Shown one piece after another: positions 26,063 to 58,451 of a stretch of 64,000 bases of DNA; position 1 is the stretch's first letter; each line of letters starts with the position of its first letter. Location: positions 2,728,001 to 2,792,000 of the forward strand of contig NZ_CP044972.1 of assembly GCF_010104355.1 (NCBI RefSeq), given 5' to 3'. The notes below the pieces were generated by a model. It saw only the letters and a list, made by a program, of their open reading frames with translations, searched no databases and had not been told where the DNA came from. Source of the stretch: Hydrogenophaga sp. PBL-H3 (lineage in GTDB: Bacteria > Pseudomonadota > Gammaproteobacteria > Burkholderiales > Burkholderiaceae_C). The position numbers and the translations under genes are program-made.

Positions 26063-26181
26063 CCACCAGAACACTCTTCGGCTCGGGCGCTCTCGCCCGG
26101 TCCACCTCACGTTGCGGCATGTCGCTGCAGCTGCCCACGGTGCGCGGGCTGGGCGCATTGATGGCCTCACGGCCAACTTGA
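26059..26181 (+). CDS. Possible 40-residue leader ORF between bchZ and pufB
   Basis: An ATG overlapping the bchZ stop (ATGA) opens a frame of 40 residues, [20 protein letters not shown] and onward, ending 13 bases before pufB. I do not recognise it. It has no transmembrane helix and is rich in Ser, Arg and Thr. It sits where pufQ lies in Rhodobacter but does not resemble it. A small stem-loop (CGGGCG-CTCT-CGCCCG) falls within it, so the segment could act as an mRNA control or processing element instead of coding. Confidence 0.3.
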
Positions 26182-26194
26182 AAAGGAGCATCCC

Positions 26195-26338
26195 ATGTCG
26201 ACACGGACATCTGTTTCCGGCTTGACGGACGATGAAGCTCAGGAGTTCCACCAGTACTACATCCAAGGCTTCATTGGGTTCACGGCCATCGCCGTTGTCG
26301 CCCACTTGCTGGTGTGGTTCTGGCGGCCCTGGCTCTGA
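26195..26338 (+). CDS. pufB: Light-harvesting 1 beta polypeptide
   Basis: A 47-residue LH1 beta chain: polar N terminus ([13 protein letters not shown]), one membrane helix with the bacteriochlorophyll-binding histidine H37 (AIAVVAH), and the aromatic tail VWFWRPWL. A clear AAGGAG ribosome-binding site lies before the ATG. First structural gene of the puf set. Confidence 0.96.
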
Positions 26339-26374
26339 CCCAGAAGGCCTTTTTGTCGTGAAAGGAAAACTGCC

Positions 26375-26599
26375 ATGAGCGATCTGTCTTATGAAGCCCA
26401 TAAGCCTTCCCTGAGCGGAGACAAGCTTTCGTTTGTCCTGATCTTTGCGCCGTGCTTCCTGCTGTTGCTGTCGCTTGCCGTGCTGGGCCAACTGGTCGGC
26501 ATGCACTGGCAGTTCTGGCTGCCTGGCGCGGAGCACAAGACCAGCATCTTCTCGGGCGTGCATGCCGCGGTCTACACCTTCATGTCTCACATCATTTAA
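26375..26599 (+). CDS. Unrecognised 74-residue single-helix protein between pufB and pufA
   Basis: I cannot assign a family with confidence. The protein starts MSDLSYEAHKPSLSGDK, has one strong membrane helix (about residues 18-43), then MHWQFWLPGAE (43-53) and a mildly hydrophobic tail ending MSHII. It has its own ribosome-binding site (AAAGGA) and lies 36 bases after pufB and 12 before pufA, where purple bacteria normally have nothing. The WQFWLP stretch recalls the WFWRPW tail of LH1 beta, and the overall shape also recalls PufQ or a PufX-like single-helix subunit; each likeness is weak. A role in LH1 assembly or as an extra ring subunit is an inference from position. Confidence 0.85.
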   Translation: MSDLSYEAHKPSLSGDKLSFVLIFAPCFLLLLSLAVLGQLVGMHWQFWLPGAEHKTSIFSGVHAAVYTFMSHII

Positions 26600-26611
26600 G
26601 GAGTTCACATC

Positions 26612-26806
26612 ATGTGGAGAATTTGGCGCCTTTTCGATCCTGTCCGCACCATGGTGGCGCAGGGCGTTTTTCTGTTCGCCGTGGCCGTGATGATTCACCT
26701 CATCCTGCTCAGCACGAACAAGTTCAACTGGCTGGACGGCCCCAAGGCAGGTCCGGCAAAGACGGCACAGACCATGCCGGCGGCCACGCCCGCAGTGAAG
26801 TCCTGA
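26612..26806 (+). CDS. pufA: Light-harvesting 1 alpha polypeptide
   Basis: A 64-residue LH1 alpha chain. It opens [10 protein letters not shown], the membrane helix carries the bacteriochlorophyll ligand H29 (AVMIHLILL), and the family motif FNWLDG follows. The tail is Pro/Ala/Lys-rich. AAGGAG precedes the ATG. Its stop codon lies inside a palindrome that begins the pufA-pufL intercistronic hairpin region. Confidence 0.97.
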
Positions 26807-26921: not shown

Positions 26922-27746
26922 ATGGCCATGCTCAACTTTGAAAAGAAATACCGGGTTCGAGGCGGAACACTGGTTGGCGGCGACCTGTTCGATTTCTGGG
27001 TGGGTCCGTTCTACGTCGGCTTCTTTGGTGTCACAACGCTGTTCTTCGCGTTTCTCGGCACCGCCATGATTCTCTGGGGCGCTTCACAAGGCCCGACCTG
27101 GAATCTCTGGCAGATCAGCATCGCCCCCCCCGACCTGTCCTACGGCCTGCGCTTCGCGCCGCTGATGGAAGGCGGCCTGTGGCAGCTCATCACCGTGTGC
27201 GCCCTCGGCTCGTTTGTCTCGTGGGCGCTGCGTGAGGTGGAGATCTGCCGCAAGCTGGGCATGGGTTACCACGTGCCCTTCGCCTTCAGCGTGGCCATCC
27301 TGGCCTACTTCACCCTGGTGGTGATCCGCCCGGTGCTGCTGGGCGCCTGGGGGCACGGCTTCCCCTACGGCATCTTCAGCCACCTCGACTGGGTGTCCAA
27401 CGTGGGCTACCAGTACCTGCACTTCCACTACAACCCGGCCCACATGCTGGCGGTGAGCTTCTTCTTCGCCACCACCTTCGCGCTGTCGCTGCATGGCTCG
27501 CTGATCCTCTCGGCCACCAACCCGGCGGCGGGTGAAAAGGTCAAGTCGCCCGAGCACGAGGACACCTTCTTCCGCGACACCATCGGCTACTCCATCGGCA
27601 CGCTGGGCATCCACCGCCTGGGCTTGTTCCTGGCACTGGCCGCCGTGCTGTTCAGCGCCCTGTGCATCGTGATCAGCGGGCCGTTCTGGAGCCGTGGCTG
27701 GCCCGAGTGGTGGGGCTGGTGGCTGAACCTGCCGATCTGGTCCTGA
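26922..27746 (+). CDS. pufL: Photosynthetic reaction centre L subunit
   Basis: A 274-residue five-helix membrane protein that, with PufM, holds the special pair, pheophytin and quinones. It opens [17 protein letters not shown]. Bacteriochlorophyll and iron ligands are in the histidine-rich stretches [17 protein letters not shown] and SLHGSLILS, and [10 protein letters not shown] lies in the last helix. A strong AGGAGG site precedes the ATG. Length equals that of the family. Confidence 0.97.
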
Positions 27747-27775
27747 GCGTCTCTGAACAAGAACAGGAGCACACC

Positions 27776-28750
27776 ATGCAATACCAAAACCTCTTCACCA
27801 CGGTGCAGGCCGTGGGACCGGTGCACCACGGCGTCGAGCTCGGCCACGGGCAGGACCCCCGCATCGGCGACAAGCCCTTCATCTTCCATTTGCTCGGCCG
27901 CCTGGGCAACGCGCAGATCGGTCCCATCTACCTCGGTGCCCTGGGGGTGGCCGCGCTGTTCTTCGGCGTGCTGGCCATCAACATCATGGGCATGAACATG
28001 CTGGCCTCGGTCAACTACGACCCGATCCAGTTCGTGCGCCAGCTGTTCTGGCTCTCGCTGGAGCCGCCAGCGGCCGGCGCAGGCCTGGGCCTGGCACCGC
28101 TGAACGAGGGCGGGTGGTGGCAGATCGCGGGCCTGTTCCTGACCGTCTCGGTGTTGCTGTGGTGGGCCCGCACCTACCGCCGTGCGCGCGCCCTGGGCAT
28201 GGGCACCCATGTGGCCTGGGCCTTCGCCGCGGCCATCTGGCTGTTTCTCGTGCTCGGCCTGATCCGCCCGGTGCTCATGGGTTCGTGGAGCGAGGCCGTG
28301 CCCTTCGGCATCTTCCCCCACCTCGACTGGACCGCCGCGTTCTCGCTGCGCTACGGCAACCTGTTCTACAACCCGTTCCACGCGCTCTCGATCGCCTTCC
28401 TGTACGGCTCCACGCTGCTGTTTGCCATGCACGGCGCCACCATCCTGGCGGTGAGCCGCTTCGGGGGTGAACGCGAGATCGAGCAGATCGTCGACCGGGG
28501 CACGGCCAGCGAGCGCGCAGCCCTGTTCTGGAGGTGGACCATGGGCTTCAACGCCACGATGGAGTCCATCCACCGCTGGGCCTGGTGGTTCGCCGTGCTG
28601 TGCCCGCTGGTGGGCGGCATCGGCATCCTGCTGACCGGCACGGTGGTGGACAACTGGTACCTCTGGGCGATCAAGCACGGCGTGGCACCGCCCTACCCCG
28701 ATGTGTTCCCCGCCGTGATGGACCCGGCACTCGCACCAGGAGCCAAGTGA
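27776..28750 (+). CDS. pufM: Photosynthetic reaction centre M subunit
   Basis: A 324-residue five-helix partner of PufL. It opens [15 protein letters not shown]; histidine ligands lie in [15 protein letters not shown] and [10 protein letters not shown], and [10 protein letters not shown] is in the final helix. The ATG at 27776 follows an AGGAG site. Its TGA overlaps the pufC ATG. The C-terminal extension ([17 protein letters not shown]) is of the kind seen in species that carry PufC. Confidence 0.97.
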
Positions 28751-29826
28751 TGAACACCTCCTTCTTCCAAAAACGGCTCTGGCTGGGCGTGCTGGCCCTG
28801 GGATCGCTCGTGCTGCTCAGCGGCTGCGAGCGCCCACCCAAGGAGACCGTGCAACACGGCTACCGCGGCACCGGCATGGTCCAGGTCTACAACCCGCGCA
28901 TCCAGGCCGATGTGTTCGACGCCAACCAGGTGCCCGCCGCGCAACCAGCGGCCAGCCCCGACGGTCCCAAGGCCGGTGCGATCTACCAGAACGTGAAGGT
29001 GCTGGGCGATCTCAGCGTGGGTGAGTTCACCCGCCTCATGGTCAACATGACGGCCTGGGTGGCGCCCGAGCAGGGTTGCAACTACTGCCACAACGGCGCC
29101 AATTTCGCCGACGACAGCCTCTACACCAAGGTGGTGGCCCGGCGCATGGTGCAGATGACGCAGCACATCAACACCGACTGGAAAACCCACGTGGCCGAGA
29201 CCGGCGTGACCTGCTACACCTGCCACCGCGGCAACCCGGTGCCCAAGGAGATCTGGTTCACCGCCGACAGCCAGCCCCACGGCTCCAACTTCATGGGCAA
29301 CAAGACCGGGCAGAACACGCCCGCAGCCAGCGTGAAGCTGGCTTCGCTGCCCTACGACCCGTTCACGTCCTACCTGCTGAAAGACGAGCCGATCCGCGTG
29401 AATGGCGCCAAGGCACTGCCCACCCAGGGAGTCCAGGGCGAGAGCATCCAGCGCACCGAGAAGACCTATGCGCTCATGACGCACATGTCGGCCTCGCTGG
29501 GGGTGAACTGCACCTACTGCCACAACACGCAGAACTTCGCCAAGTGGGACGGCGCACCGCCCCAGCGTGTGACGGCCTACCACGGCATCCGCATGGCGCG
29601 TGACCTGAACCTGGCCTACATGGAGCCACTGACCGATGTGTTCCCGAGCAACCGCAAGGGCGAGCTCGGCGATGTGCCCAAGCTGAACTGCGCCACCTGC
29701 CACCAGGGGGCATTCAAACCCCTGCTGGGTGCGCCGATGCTCAAGGACCACCCCGAGCTCGCGGCCTACCGGCCGTATGCGGCGGCACCGGCAGCAGCTC
29801 CGGCGGCCGAAGCGCCGAAACAGTGA
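28750..29826 (+). CDS. pufC: Reaction-centre tetraheme cytochrome c subunit
   Basis: A 358-residue periplasmic electron donor to the special pair. A lipoprotein signal ends in LLSGC (cysteine about residue 26). Four haem sites are present: CNYCH, CYTCH, CTYCH and CATCH, with methionine ligands in RLMVNMTAW- and YALMTHMSA-type helices. The tail is Ala/Pro-rich. Its need for covalent haem attachment links it to the ccm operon in this same window. Confidence 0.97.
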
Positions 29827-53132: not shown

Positions 53133-54218
53133 TCAAACGGGTTGGGATGGGCGCGGGCTGCGAGCGCGGCGTCTTTCAAAAATGCTCAGGGTCGCCTCGA
53201 TGTCCTCGACATCAAGGCCGCGAGTGATGAACACGATGCGGGTGCGTCGGTCGTCGCTGGGCCAGCGCGTCAGGGTCTCGGGCGGGTGGAACAGGTGCTG
53301 CACACCGTGGATCACCATCGGGTGCTCCGGGTCGTCGGCCAGGTGCACGATGCCCTTGACGCGCAACAGGTCGTCCCCGCGCATGGCCGCGATCATGTCG
53401 AGCCAGGCCATGAAGCCTTCGCGCGAGAGCGGCTGCTCGCGCACGATCACGTGCGAGCGGATGTGGTCGTCGTGCCGGTTCGGGTCGTGTTGTCCCGGCG
53501 CGCTCACGGGGAAAAAATAGGAGCGCTCGTTGTCTTGCGACACAGGCAACCACACCGCAGCGCTCGGCCGGTCAAGCAGACCCTGCAATGCGCTCAATGC
53601 ATCGGTTGGCTCTGTCGTGACCACCGCCAGCGGGTTGATGCCGCGCAGCCGCTCCAGCAAGGGCGCCACCTGTTCGGGCTGCACCAGATCGGACTTCGTG
53701 AGCAACAAGCGGTCGGCCACCGCGGCCTGTTTCACGGCTTCGGAGTGCTGGTCCAGCGTGGCCATGGCGTTGAAGGAGTCCACGGTACAGGCCACGCCCG
53801 CCAGGCGCCAGCGCTGCGCCAGACGCGGGTCGCCCATGAGCGTGTGCAGGATGGGCGCCGGGTCGGCCAGGCCGGTGGTCTCCACCACCACATGGCGCAG
53901 CGCGCCGCGCTGAGCTTCGGGGCTTTGCGCCAGGCGCTCGAAGGCCTCGACCAGATCACCCCGCACGGTGCAGCAGATGCAGCCGTTGGCCAGCAGCACC
54001 ATGTTTTCCTGCGTGTGATCGACGAGGTCGTGGTCCAGCCCCACCGAGCCGAACTCGTTGATGACCACCGCCGTGCCGTGCATGTCGGGCTGGCGCAGCA
54101 GGCGGTTGAGCAGCGTGGTCTTTCCGCTGCCCAGAAAGCCGGTGAGCACCGTGATGGGAATGCGCGCTGGTGCATCGGCGTTGTCGCCGGCGTCTGTGCG
54201 GGGAAGGATGAAGGCCAT
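53133..54218 (-). CDS. CobW/COG0523 family GTP-binding metallochaperone
   Basis: A 361-residue G3E GTPase. Walker A is GFLGSGKTT (27-35); the metal-binding motif NGCICC gives C80, C82 and C83; the guanine motif TKSD and a C-terminal CobW domain (VKGIVHLADDPEHPMVIHGVQHLFHP, GLDVEDIE) follow. Family members deliver Zn, Co, Fe or similar metals to client enzymes. Its place behind hyuB suggests that the hydantoinase is the client. No Zur site is seen nearby. Confidence 0.92.
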   Translation of the reverse strand: MAFILPRTDAGDNADAPARIPITVLTGFLGSGKTTLLNRLLRQPDMHGTAVVINEFGSVGLDHDLVDHTQENMVLLANGCICCTVRGDLVEAFERLAQSPEAQRGALRHVVVETTGLADPAPILHTLMGDPRLAQRWRLAGVACTVDSFNAMATLDQHSEAVKQAAVADRLLLTKSDLVQPEQVAPLLERLRGINPLAVVTTEPTDALSALQGLLDRPSAAVWLPVSQDNERSYFFPVSAPGQHDPNRHDDHIRSHVIVREQPLSREGFMAWLDMIAAMRGDDLLRVKGIVHLADDPEHPMVIHGVQHLFHPPETLTRWPSDDRRTRIVFITRGLDVEDIEATLSIFERRRARSPRPSQPV

Positions 54219-54226
54219 GGGCAGAC

Positions 54227-54595
54227 TCAGGTGCTGGAGGGGCCGTGCAATTTGGCGAACGAGTCGAGCGTGCGCGCCAGACGCGTGAGCAACCAGTCGG
54301 CCACCGCCTCGTCGGCCTCGCCCTCTTCCAGGCGGTTCAGCAGGGTCGCCACCGGCTTGGTCTGCTGGTCGATCGGGCCGGGTTGCAGCAGGAAGGTCAC
54401 CACCACGGTTTCGCCCAGTCGCTCGCCTTCGGCCCACAAATAGTCGGCGATGTCGAGTTCGAAGTCTTCCAGCGAGACGCTCACGCCGCCCGTCATGCAG
54501 CCGCAGCCCGCGCCCAGCGTCACGTGCTGGGCCGAGAGCCGGCTCCACAGGTGGGCGAGGCGTTCGGCGCGCGGGTCGGCCACGGCGGTGCTCAC
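54227..54595 (-). CDS. Small conserved-looking protein with Cys-Gly-Cys motif between hyuB and the CobW gene
   Basis: A 122-residue protein I do not recognise. A GTG start overlaps the hyuB stop (GTGA), and the stop is 8 bases before the CobW start, so it belongs to the operon. GAGCGCMTGG (about 29-38) has two close cysteines that could bind metal; the rest is acidic and helical (SLEDFELDIADYLWAEGERLG, LLNRLEEGEADEAVADWLL). It could pass metal to, or help mature, the hydantoinase. This is position-based inference. Confidence 0.8.
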   Translation of the reverse strand: MSTAVADPRAERLAHLWSRLSAQHVTLGAGCGCMTGGVSVSLEDFELDIADYLWAEGERLGETVVVTFLLQPGPIDQQTKPVATLLNRLEEGEADEAVADWLLTRLARTLDSFAKLHGPSST

Positions 54596-56376
54596 TGGCC
54601 GTCCCAGGCCACGTCTTCCACAGCGACCTGTGCCTTGCCACTGCGCAGCGCTTGTGTCGCAGGGTGGTCCACCTGACCGTGGCCATCGAGCGCCACCTTG
54701 TAGACCTCACGCGCCACCTGAGCGCTCACATAGCCCTCGCGCACGTCCTCGGCCACCAGATCGAGCTCGCGTTCCAGCGGGCTGCCGAAGCCACCGCCAC
54801 CGCCCGAGAGCATCTTGTAGGCGTCACCGCGCTCCAGCCGCACGTTGAAGATCTTGGCGTTCAAATGGTCGGTCTTCCACTCGCCCTTGTGTCGCACGGC
54901 CAGGCCGTTGCCCATGGCATCGCCACCGCCGTCCAGGCCCCAGGGCTTGCAGTGCACGCGGTCGATGCGGGTGGTGACGGTGAAGGGGCTGAGCGCCTGC
55001 ACCACCATCTCGGCCCCGAGGCCACCGCGGTAGCGGCCGGCACCGGCGCTGTCGCGGCGGATCTCGTACTTCTCCACCAGCACCGGGTACTTGGCCTCGA
55101 GCTGTTCGGTCGGGCTGTTGTGGGTGTCGCCGTCGTTGATGCAGACCGTGACCGACACACCGTCCTCGGTGCTCTTGGCACCCCAGCCACCGCCCAGCGG
55201 GCCGATGCCCACGATGAACAGGCGACCGTCTTCCGGGCTGATGCCGTGGATGTTGGGGAACACCAGATCGGCGTGGTGACCCGCAATCGAACGGTTCGGA
55301 ATCGCCGGCGCGAGCGCCTTGAAGATGGTGTCGATCACCGTCATCGGGAAGGTCATCCACACGCGCATGGGGTAGGGGCGCTCGGCGCTGATCACCGTGC
55401 CCATGGGCATGATGACCTTGAGCGATCGGAAGCTGCCGTCGTTGACCGGGTAGTCGGTGGGCGTGGTGAGGCACTTGTAGGCCACCTGCGCGCAGGCAAT
55501 GCCGGTGGTGAAGCCCGAGTTGTAGAAGCCGCGCACCTGCTTGCTCACGTCCGACAGGTCCACCGTCATCTCGTCGCCTTTGACCGTGACCTTCACGCGG
55601 ATCGGAATGCGCTTGCCGATGTCCAGGCCGTCGTCGTCCATGAACGACTCGGCTTCGTACACACCATCGGGAATCGACAACGTGTTCTTGCGCGCCACGG
55701 CCTCGCTGGAGTCCATGATCTGGCGGATCGACGCGTTCACCGCATCGGCGCCGTAGCGCTGCAGCAGCTCCACGTAGCGGCGTTCGCCGGTGGTGATGGC
55801 GGTGATCTGCGCGCGCAGGTCGCCCAGGGCGCGTTCGGCCAGCCGCACGTTCATCGCGATGATGTCGATCAGGTCCTGGTTCACCACGCCTTCGCGCTGG
55901 TACTTCAGGATCGGGATCTGGATGCCTTCGCTGAAGATGTCGGTCGTCACGTTGCCCAGCGTGCCGCCCACGTCCAGCCAGTGCGCCATGCAGCAGGTGA
56001 AGCCCTCCAACCGACCTTCGTGGAAGATCGGCATCGTGAATGTGAAGTGGTTCAGGTGGCTGCCGGTGGTGTAGGCGTCGTTGGTGACGAGGATGTCGCC
56101 CGGCAGGATGTTCTCGTACCCGAAATGGCGGATCTTCGCCTTGACGGTTTCGGACATGCCGCGGATGAACATCGGCAGACCCAGGCCGATGGAGACTGTG
56201 TCGCCCTCTTTGGTGAACAGGCCCACCGTGAAGTCCAGCGCCTCGTAAATGATGAGGTTGTAGGCGGTGCGCGTGAGGTTGGTCTTCATCTCCTCCGTCA
56301 CGGCGTAGAGGCCGTTGCGGATGATCTCGACGGTGACCGCATCGACGGCCGGGTTCTGGATGTCTTGTGTTTTCAT
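54592..56376 (-). CDS. hyuB: Hydantoinase B/oxoprolinase subunit
   Basis: A 594-residue subunit of the ATP-dependent hydantoinase/oxoprolinase/acetone carboxylase superfamily. It opens AVTVEIIRNGLYAVTEEM; GDILVTNDAYTTGSHLNH and AHWLDVGG contain conserved Asp and His residues that likely bind metal; GGGGGFGSPLERE is near the C terminus. It works with HyuA, whose stop its ATG overlaps. Whether the substrate is a hydantoin, oxoproline or another cyclic amide is not decided by sequence. Confidence 0.92.
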   Translation of the reverse strand: MKTQDIQNPAVDAVTVEIIRNGLYAVTEEMKTNLTRTAYNLIIYEALDFTVGLFTKEGDTVSIGLGLPMFIRGMSETVKAKIRHFGYENILPGDILVTNDAYTTGSHLNHFTFTMPIFHEGRLEGFTCCMAHWLDVGGTLGNVTTDIFSEGIQIPILKYQREGVVNQDLIDIIAMNVRLAERALGDLRAQITAITTGERRYVELLQRYGADAVNASIRQIMDSSEAVARKNTLSIPDGVYEAESFMDDDGLDIGKRIPIRVKVTVKGDEMTVDLSDVSKQVRGFYNSGFTTGIACAQVAYKCLTTPTDYPVNDGSFRSLKVIMPMGTVISAERPYPMRVWMTFPMTVIDTIFKALAPAIPNRSIAGHHADLVFPNIHGISPEDGRLFIVGIGPLGGGWGAKSTEDGVSVTVCINDGDTHNSPTEQLEAKYPVLVEKYEIRRDSAGAGRYRGGLGAEMVVQALSPFTVTTRIDRVHCKPWGLDGGGDAMGNGLAVRHKGEWKTDHLNAKIFNVRLERGDAYKMLSGGGGGFGSPLERELDLVAEDVREGYVSAQVAREVYKVALDGHGQVDHPATQALRSGKAQVAVEDVAWDGQ

Positions 56377-58451
56377 GACCGGTCGTCTCCGATGTTGATT
56401 TGCAGGTTGCCCAGTTCGTCCACGCGCAGCGAATCGCCGGGCTGCACCACCGTGGTGGAGGCGTGTTCTTCGATCAGCGCCGGGCCGTCGATGGCGTTGC
56501 CCGCCAGCAGCAATTCGCGGGTGTAGACGGGGGTGTCGGCCCAGCCGCTGGAGCGGAAATACACCGGCTTGGTGGCCCGCACCGCGCCCGCGTCGGGCGT
56601 GGCGGTTCCGGTGGCCACGCTGTGCTTGGGCGGCTTCTTCATGGTGCCCAGCACCGTCACGCGCAGGCTCACGAGGTCGGCCGGCTCCTTGGGTGCCGAA
56701 GTGCCGTAGCGCACCTTGTGCAGCTCATCGAACTGGCGCTTGATGGCGGAGCGGTCCTTGTCCACGAAAAAGGCGCCAGGCAGGTCCACCGTCACCGCAT
56801 GCTCCTGGCCCACGTAGCGCATGTCGGCGGCGCGTTCGATCACCACGTCTTCGGCTTTGGTGCCCGATTGCGTCAGCGCCGCGCGGCCTTCGTCTTCCAT
56901 CGACTGGTAGAGCGCCTCAATCTCGTCGAACGAGACCTCGTCGAGTTTGCGGAACACCGAGCGCACGTAGTCGTAGCGGCGGTCGGAAAACAACATGCCG
57001 TAGGCGGAGAAGTACCCGGGCGCATACGGAATCAGCACCTTGCGGATGCCGAGCTCGCGGGCGATGGCCGAGGCGTGCAGCGGGCCGGCGCCGCCGTACA
57101 CCACCATGGTGAAGCTGCCAGCGTCCAGGCCGCGCTCGGTGGTCACGGCCTTCACCGCGTGCGACATCTGCGTCACCGCGATGCGCAGGATGCCGTCGGC
57201 CGCGGCGGTGGGGTCCAGGCCCAGCGGGCCGGCAATGCGCTCCTGCATCTGGCGCTGGCAGCCGGCCAGGTCGAGCTTGAGTTCGCCACCCAGAAAGTGG
57301 TCGGCATCCAGGCGGCCGAGCAGCAGGTTGGCATCGGTCACGGTCGGCTCGGTGCCGCCTCGGCCATAGGCCACCGGGCCGGGGATGGAGCCCGCGCTCT
57401 GCGGGCCCACCCGCAAGGCGTTGCCGGTTTCCACGCGGGCGATCGAGCCACCGCCCGTGCCCACCTCGTGGATGTCCATCATCGGAATCTGGATCGGCAG
57501 GGCACGCTCGTAACCACCGATCAGCGCCGAGCCGGTGGTGAGCGGCCGGCCTTCGCTGATCACGCCGGCCTTGGCCGTGGTGCCGCCCATGTCGAAGGCG
57601 ATGGCGTCACCCATGCCGAGCTGCGCGCAGATGGCCTGGGCTCCGATCACGCCCGCCGCCGGGCCAGACTCCAGCATGCGCACGCAGTCGCGCCGCGCAT
57701 GGGCGCTGGGGAACAGGCCGCCGGTGGACTGCACCACGTAAAAGTCGCCCTTGAAGCCCTGGGTGCTCAGGTGCTGCTCCAGCTCACCTAGGTAGGCCGA
57801 GACGCGCGGGCCCACGTAGGCGTTGGCCACTGCGGTGGAGACGCGTTCGAACTCGCGGTACTCCTGGCTCAGCTCGTGCGAGGCGCAGACGAAGGCGCCC
57901 GGCAGTTCTTCCTGCAGGATCTGCTTGACGCGCTGCTCGTGCGCGGGGTTGCGGTACGAATGCAGCAGCAGCACGGCCACCGCCTCGATGCCCTGGCCGC
58001 GCAGGTCCTTCGCCAGCTCGCGCACGGCCGCCTCGTCCAGCGCTTTGTGGGTGCTGCCGTCGGCGCGCAGACGCTCGGCCACCTCGAAGCGCAGCGAGCG
58101 CTTCACCAGTGGCTGGTGCTTGTTGAAAAAGAGGTTGTAGGCATCGGGGCGGTTGACACGGCCGATCTCGTAGATGTCGCGGAAGCCTTCGGTGATCAGC
58201 AGCGCGGTGTTGGCGCCGTTGCGCTCCAGCAAGGTGTTGATGGCGATGGTGGAGCCGTGCAGGAACAGGTTGCCGTCTTTCAGGTCGATGCTGGCGCTGT
58301 CCAGCGTGGCCTGGATGCCGTTGACCAGCTGGCCGTGGGTGGACAGGGCTTTGCCGAACAGCAGCTTGCCGGTGGCTTCGTCAAAAGCCGCCATGTCGGT
58401 GAAGGTGCCGCCGATGTCGACGGCGACCCGCAATTGGGGGGTGTTGCTCAT
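56373..58451 (-). CDS. hyuA: Hydantoinase A/oxoprolinase subunit
   Basis: A 692-residue ATP-binding subunit with an actin-like fold. The phosphate motif VAVDIGGTFTDMAAFD is at the N terminus, HGSTIAINTLLERNGA and LESGPAAGVIGAQAI follow, and AFDMGGTTAKAG is the second phosphate loop. It phosphorylates the substrate or intermediate that HyuB handles. It follows the FAH-family gene after 26 bases. Confidence 0.93.
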   Translation of the reverse strand: MSNTPQLRVAVDIGGTFTDMAAFDEATGKLLFGKALSTHGQLVNGIQATLDSASIDLKDGNLFLHGSTIAINTLLERNGANTALLITEGFRDIYEIGRVNRPDAYNLFFNKHQPLVKRSLRFEVAERLRADGSTHKALDEAAVRELAKDLRGQGIEAVAVLLLHSYRNPAHEQRVKQILQEELPGAFVCASHELSQEYREFERVSTAVANAYVGPRVSAYLGELEQHLSTQGFKGDFYVVQSTGGLFPSAHARRDCVRMLESGPAAGVIGAQAICAQLGMGDAIAFDMGGTTAKAGVISEGRPLTTGSALIGGYERALPIQIPMMDIHEVGTGGGSIARVETGNALRVGPQSAGSIPGPVAYGRGGTEPTVTDANLLLGRLDADHFLGGELKLDLAGCQRQMQERIAGPLGLDPTAAADGILRIAVTQMSHAVKAVTTERGLDAGSFTMVVYGGAGPLHASAIARELGIRKVLIPYAPGYFSAYGMLFSDRRYDYVRSVFRKLDEVSFDEIEALYQSMEDEGRAALTQSGTKAEDVVIERAADMRYVGQEHAVTVDLPGAFFVDKDRSAIKRQFDELHKVRYGTSAPKEPADLVSLRVTVLGTMKKPPKHSVATGTATPDAGAVRATKPVYFRSSGWADTPVYTRELLLAGNAIDGPALIEEHASTTVVQPGDSLRVDELGNLQINIGDDRS

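Follow-up and report, generated by a model that had tools for sequence, protein, structure and literature searches.

A ligandless LH1 beta paralog encoded between pufB and pufA in Burkholderiales

Between the genes for the LH1 beta (pufB) and alpha (pufA) chains, the puf operon of Hydrogenophaga sp. PBL-H3 encodes a 74-residue protein, ORF74, which is a paralog of LH1 beta (PufB). Neither the bacteriochlorophyll ligand nor the N-terminal motif of LH1 beta survives in it, and the membrane helix, the interfacial Trp, and the C-terminal tail have been kept. We place this assignment close to certainty. What is new here is the nature of the protein, a ligandless LH1 beta paralog; the gene itself has been published before, with no function assigned. 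The best reading of its role, judged from sequence and about evenly poised, is that of a non-antenna, beta-derived helper in RC-LH1 pigment handling or assembly. The window referred to below is the whole stretch of DNA analyzed, 64,000 nucleotides of contig NZ_CP044972.1.

Results

The gene order in the window is bchX, bchY, bchZ, pufB, ORF74, pufA, pufL, pufM, and pufC, with pufB and all that follow it on the forward strand. pufB (26195-26338; NF040862, E 6.9e-25; Pfam LHC, E 3.8e-13) encodes a short LH1 beta chain of 47 aa with the ligand His37, and pufA (26612-26806; NF040861, E 1.4e-19) encodes an LH1 alpha chain of 64 aa. The ORF74 gene (26375-26599; 74 codons, with an ATG start and a TAA stop; protein MSDLSYEAHKPSLSGDKLSFVLIFAPCFLLLLSLAVLGQLVGMHWQFWLPGAEHKTSIFSGVHAAVYTFMSHII) is separated from them by 36 and 12 bases, respectively, exactly as the earlier note had it, and is preceded by its own ribosome-binding site, AAAGGA, at 26361-26366; the pufA site, AAGGAG (26598-26603), overlaps the stop codon of ORF74. 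Downstream lie the genes for the reaction center L subunit (pufL, 26922-27746; TIGR01157, E 1.2e-131), the M subunit (pufM, 27776-28750; TIGR01115, E 1.4e-163 on the frame 27662-28750), and the reaction center cytochrome (pufC, 28750-29826; NF040706, E 1e-146 on the frame 28534-29826), the starts of the latter two being placed from the translation. A search of the window's genome recovers a single copy of ORF74, and pufB and pufA are the only genes in it that the LHC model recognizes, with no LH2 found; thus, ORF74 serves no LH2. Elsewhere in the window, the pufB 5' leader (26112-26225) contains a frame, first seen in another locus (L045) and starting here with TTG, that encodes a peptide of the type MSWHxAAAAxxAR. 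Such a peptide occurs in 29 of 105 unique pufB leaders, in 7 of them in frame with pufB without an intervening stop, and may represent a leader peptide, an RNA element, or Rubrivivax ORF1. At 53133-58451, hydantoinase A and B genes adjoin a CobW-type gene, with LysR regulators on both sides.

The frame at 26375-26599 is a real gene. Among 67 Hydrogenophaga genomes searched, 23 have pufL, and their puf loci show a short PufB (47-48 aa), ORF74, and PufA in 20 cases, a single long PufB (76 aa) without ORF74 in 2, and a contig edge in the remaining one. Across 399 Burkholderiales genomes, pufL was found in 45, including the window's own and one partial locus that was left out; the other 43 loci have a short PufB with ORF74 (34), a long PufB alone (5), or a short PufB without ORF74 (3, all from family f23), and one is not assessable. 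Hence, of the 64 Burkholderiales operons that could be assessed, 54 have ORF74 in the interval from pufB to pufA: that of the window, 19 from further Hydrogenophaga genomes with pufL, and 34 from other genera. Adjacent genes for LH1 beta and alpha, taken as normal in the earlier note, are therefore not the rule in Burkholderiales. Named carriers among the best 80 of 234 loci include Rubrivivax gelatinosus, R. benzoatilyticus, Piscinibacter aquaticus, Aquincola tertiaricarbonis, and Hydrogenophaga flava, together with Methylibium and Limnohabitans bins. All 7 Burkholderiales operons with a long PufB are without ORF74, so that the operons of this order exist in three states: short PufB with ORF74 (54), long PufB alone (7), and short PufB with an upstream PufQ-like gene (3). 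A rule that a short PufB implies ORF74 holds within Burkholderiales except in f23 and breaks outside the order, where ORF74 is absent from 5 other pufL genomes sampled from the class, 3 of which have a short PufB. An ORF74 profile search of Alphaproteobacteria matched 16 of 289 genomes. In the filtered listing of 15 of these loci no ORF74 appears between pufB and pufA; a ligand-bearing PufB directly precedes PufA in 13, and PufA alone is listed in 2 (L265 and L267).

The gene is under purifying selection. Its length is 73-79 aa and exactly 74 in 84 of 103 unique sequences, figures that are partly a matter of construction, since the start was taken as the Met giving the length nearest 74, and that come from a set enriched for similar sequences, with many loci drawn from a similarity scan. 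A Shine-Dalgarno core is found ahead of the gene in 53 of 53 loci, compared with 16% of 17-mers picked at random from those loci, and the gene is spaced 17-44 bases from pufB and 10-22 from pufA. The median dN/dS in Hydrogenophaga is 0.163 for ORF74, 0.113 for PufB, and 0.133 for PufA, with none of 156 ORF74 pairs at or above 1; across the order the ORF74 median is 0.352 and none of 433 pairs reaches 1, with synonymous sites near saturation. Within the protein, the tail is under the strongest constraint and the N-terminus under the weakest. The earlier suggestion of a separate gene with its own ribosome-binding site is thereby upheld. It might still be argued that ORF74 is a functionless copy of pufB in decay, as its loss of the ligand and of the N-terminal motif would befit, but purifying selection, a near-invariant tail, and its retention with a ribosome-binding site of its own already contradict this, and we consider it very improbable.

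The window's protein taken alone falls in no family of Pfam, NCBIfam (including the pufB model), or PHROGs, and at E values up to 0.1 only 2 of 53 ORF74 members match Pfam LHC (PF00556). Its descent emerges from profile comparison with hhalign, in which the ORF74 profile matches long PufB at 99.5% (E 2.4e-21, 76 columns), short PufB at 94.6%, and PufA at 0.6%, which excludes PufA as a relative; reversed controls stay below 2%, and none of 40 column-permuted controls exceeds 13.8%. Against the PDB, phmmer with the window's ORF74 finds an antenna chain (8z81_B, E 2.7e-6) and an LH1 beta chain (9m8m, E 0.0056), and the 53-member profile has 40 matches at E up to 0.1, each of which bears the name of a light-harvesting or antenna chain. 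A fold search of the PDB with the AlphaFold2 model (mean pLDDT 64) gave no match, which for a model this short carries no information. In a tree of 102 rows, built on an alignment of 74 columns with many forks unresolved, ORF74 forms one side of a branch (100/99) and joins PufB at an open fork that also holds the long PufB of family f30. Frames of roughly 330-470 aa that weakly match ORF74 in many Hydrogenophaga genomes, one of them a membrane protein with a HEFSH motif, were set aside as chance helix similarity. The original verdict that ORF74 is not an LH1 alpha or beta chain thus stands with regard to alpha and may stand with regard to function, but by descent the protein is an LH1 beta paralog.

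These relationships would be explained, with good probability, by a single duplication, within Burkholderiales, of a PufB of the long form, from which a short pigment-binding PufB and ORF74 arose, both the direction of change and the single event being read from the present distribution. In genus g30, a long PufB alone is seen in L021, L152, and L167 and a short PufB with ORF74 in L143, L144, and L147; in the tree, the ORF74 group has L143 at its base, making this genus a place to seek the duplication itself. A separate observation concerns one Hydrogenophaga genome, which has a divergent puf operon with the PufA MWRYWRIVDPRK and the PufB NPSGLTDEECQEFH; this operon recurs in families f10 and f30 (loci concerned: L022, L052 of genome G057, L175, L181, and L183), which suggests exchange of puf operons.

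At the position of the bacteriochlorophyll ligand, the window's ORF74 has Gln39, consistent with the claim that no His is found there. Among the 103 unique sequences, the residue is Q in 83, T in 7, S in 4, K in 3, L in 2, and H, D, R, or G in one each. The ligand His is kept in all 89 short PufB chains (His37) and all 8 long ones, which were collected with a pattern requiring the N-terminal FH, so that the latter His is invariant by construction and the ligand His is not. The N-terminal SGLT.EEA.EFH motif of LH1 beta is missing from ORF74 in both alignment and profile. In LH1 beta, the Trp nine residues beyond the ligand is the donor of a hydrogen bond to the acetyl group. Trp48 at that position has a weighted frequency of 0.87 in ORF74, next to 0.98 for Trp45 and 0.96 for Ala35; the likeness of MHWQFWLP to the aromatic tail of LH1 beta, which had been remarked upon from the window alone, is borne out. 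The conserved tail spans residues 50-73 (PGAE...GV.AAVYTFMS), with P50, G51, V62, and V66 invariant and A52, E53, A65, Y67, M70, and S71 nearly so in weighted counts. AlphaFold2, at modest confidence, predicts the expected membrane helix at 13-47 and also a second one at 58-73, so that the description of a protein with one strong helix holds for the membrane segment only.

Among the guesses of the earlier note was a displaced PufQ. None of the 53 ORF74 members matches Pfam PufQ (PF05398) at E up to 0.1, and none of 72 pufL genomes has a PufQ above the Pfam cutoff. However, the three f23 loci have another small one-helix gene between bchZ and pufB, and similar genes are seen in 9 of the 12 gammaproteobacterial loci listed, in L189, and in two alphaproteobacterial loci. 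The loci with such a small one-helix PufQ-like gene are L186 (at 497-742), L189, L190, L254, L256-L261, L266, L278, L148, L149, and L155; of six genes tested, none passes the Pfam PufQ cutoff, although two match the model below it (E 0.043 and 0.066), and PufQ-like genes may be commoner than annotated. The upstream gene of L186 keeps the His of the antenna ligand position and matches its own PufB (E 1e-10) and Rubrivivax ORF2 (3e-10) in pairwise comparison. A profile of 15 upstream genes matches ORF74 at 98.8%, long PufB at 98.9%, PufQ (30 sequences) at 94.4%, and PufA at 14.2%, and column-permuted controls do not exceed 1.7% with ORF74 or 1.6% with PufQ. The direct comparison of ORF74 with PufQ gives 78.8% over 44 columns only, and single PufQ sequences, when scored with the ORF74 profile, barely outdo shuffled decoys (best 13.9 versus 12.1 bits). 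Over the 64 Burkholderiales loci, the upstream-gene profile, which was partly trained on the f23 genes that it recovers, finds the gene in the three f23 loci only, the next best match having E 0.098. The upstream gene appears in none of the 54 loci with ORF74, 4 of which have fewer than 450 bases upstream, and in none of the 7 with a long PufB. This three-state exclusivity fails in Gammaproteobacteria, where several loci combine a long PufB with an upstream gene; L187 and L188, with a short PufB outside Burkholderiales, have no upstream gene among those listed. In the order of G582, where further upstream genes were sought, pufL is present in 1 of 53 genomes, G582 itself. In the tree, upstream genes form a group of their own (98/97) and ORF74 is nearer PufB than they are, and a single clade of ORF74 and the upstream genes is not rejected (p-AU 0.37).

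Discussion

The loss of the residue that holds bacteriochlorophyll implies that ORF74 probably helps build the photosystem and does not catch light. The mechanism as a whole, which we hold with slightly less than even confidence, would begin with ORF74 being made together with PufB and PufA. By homology, it would lie in the membrane like a beta chain, with the N-terminus inside and the tail outside, and might pair transiently with PufA, PufB, or nascent pigment. It would thereby serve RC-LH1 assembly and pigment handling as a PufQ-like helper and not as an antenna chain, a role close to the new LH1 assembly factor that was one of the guesses in the earlier note. The Gln at the ligand position and the kept Trp could allow a weak, reversible contact with bacteriochlorophyll, such binding being predicted to be weak or nil, and the conserved tail is the likely docking element. 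In Rhodobacter sphaeroides, PufQ is reported to be required for normal bacteriochlorophyll synthesis and to contact ferrochelatase (PMC5725709), and a PufQ-like role for ORF74 is therefore reasonable. On the other hand, a beta-like tail of ORF74 would be periplasmic, whereas that of PufQ is predicted to be cytoplasmic in the same report (PMC5725709), and an abundance like that of LH1 would fit a structural subunit at least as well. The link to PufQ is in turn opposed by the position of ORF74 nearer PufB in the tree, the short span of the direct profile match, and the 14.2% match of the upstream profile to PufA.

The closest rival, and the main one, sees in ORF74 a structural, non-pigmented third LH1 polypeptide, located in or around the ring, either beside the beta chains or replacing alpha-beta pairs to keep a gap for quinones; we regard this as a serious possibility, if one well short of even. 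LH1 gamma of Blastochloris is the model for the former arrangement. PufX and protein W are models for the latter (PMC10214105), and 11 gamma-like helices are reported between the beta chains of Rhodopila globiformis (PMC9640540). The beta ancestry of ORF74 is in keeping with such a subunit, as is the similar tail carried, where ORF74 is missing, by the ring-forming long PufB. The major 1-kb puf transcript of Roseateles depolymerans reportedly carries pufA, pufB, and ORF74 together (PMC10037100), so that the expectation of a message as abundant as that of LH1 is probably right. The ribosome-binding sites are likewise comparable (median strengths of -8.0 for pufB, -6.4 for ORF74, and -7.3 for pufA), with that of ORF74 weaker than that of pufB in 67 of 107 loci and stronger in 25, but these values are not decisive as a gauge of stoichiometry. 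Conversely, ORF74 no longer has the PufB motif at its N-terminus, where it is also least constrained, and PDB chains are no closer to it than are ordinary antenna chains, indicating that no solved structure shows it. For the RC-LH1 of Rubrivivax gelatinosus, no structure was found in the PDB, the best match to its PufB being 9m8m at E 2.8e-17, far from self-identity. The specific proposal of a PufX-like subunit finds no support, as ORF74 has no Pfam match at all and lies between pufB and pufA. The usual place of pufX is after pufM.

That ORF74 might be a displaced PufQ had also been raised at the outset. In this view, an ortholog of the upstream gene would have relocated to the space separating pufB from pufA and would steer tetrapyrrole flow at ferrochelatase. 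The upstream genes do suggest a distant link, through their profile matches to both ORF74 and PufQ, and the equal length, the one helix, the conserved tail, and the failure of the upstream gene and ORF74 to occur together in Burkholderiales accord with displacement. However, the gene is not upstream of pufB, the tree separates it from the upstream genes, and the Pfam PufQ test is negative throughout, making displacement improbable. More tentatively than the helper role itself, we propose that PufQ, the upstream PufQ-like genes of Alpha- and Gammaproteobacteria, and ORF74 may constitute one helper superfamily derived from long LH1 beta, in which an antenna chain would have become its own assembly or pigment-flow factor, either as a PufB tail or as a separate, mostly ligandless gene. 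Surveys report pufQ to be missing from NOR5/OM60 and Sphingomonadales (PMC3176799) and from Chromatiaceae and Ectothiorhodospiraceae, yet present in Halorhodospira (PMC8877833); the text of the Congregibacter paper contains none of the puf terms looked for. If the PufQ link is true, it would explain both the origin of PufQ and how purple bacteria said to lack it manage.

ORF2/ORF74 has been in print without a function since the sequencing of the Rubrivivax operon, and its identity as a ligandless LH1 beta paralog leads to definite expectations about topology, partners, and pocket. The question can be tested, as carriers can be grown and Roseateles has reportedly been mutated already (PMC10037100).

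Compared with PufQ (PF05398) and the PufQ-like genes between bchZ and pufB, ORF74 is alike in being about 74 aa long with one helix, in having a variable N-terminus and a conserved C-terminus, and in belonging to the puf operon, but it is placed elsewhere in the operon and has no Pfam PufQ match, and the upstream genes form a separate clade. With LH1 gamma, gamma-like polypeptides, PufX, and protein W, it shares, by analogy only, the character of a small single-helix LH1 partner; it differs in having no Pfam match, and no such chain is among its PDB matches. The gamma-like helix of Rhodopila is reported to have the opposite orientation (PMC9640540). Long-form PufB (L021, L031, L152, and others; in the PDB, 9m8m, an LH1 beta chain, and 8z81 and 7xxf, antenna or light-harvesting chains) resembles ORF74 in the homologous helix and tail, in the Trp at ligand+9, and in WLPG followed by the tail, whereas ORF74 is without the ligand His and the N-terminal motif and has the tail signature AVYTFMS. 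Among published genes, ORF2 of Rubrivivax gelatinosus, upstream of pufA, is reported without a function in a paper that cites Nagashima 1994 and compares it with PufA-type chains (PMC12817894), and in Roseateles, pufA, pufB, and ORF74 come first among the genes listed as reduced when a sigma factor is mutated (PMC10037100). In the open-access literature, as far as its available text extends and with subscription papers mostly outside its coverage, no statement was found that ORF2/ORF74 is a PufB paralog. The homologs between pufB and pufA in R. gelatinosus DSM 1709 and IM 151 are 50% identical to the window's protein, and Roseateles ORF74 is equated with it by position (locus-tag order), length, and name, and not by sequence. 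In occupying the same place upstream of pufA, the window's gene is the Hydrogenophaga member of this group, with no essential difference from ORF2 of Rubrivivax or ORF74 of Roseateles.
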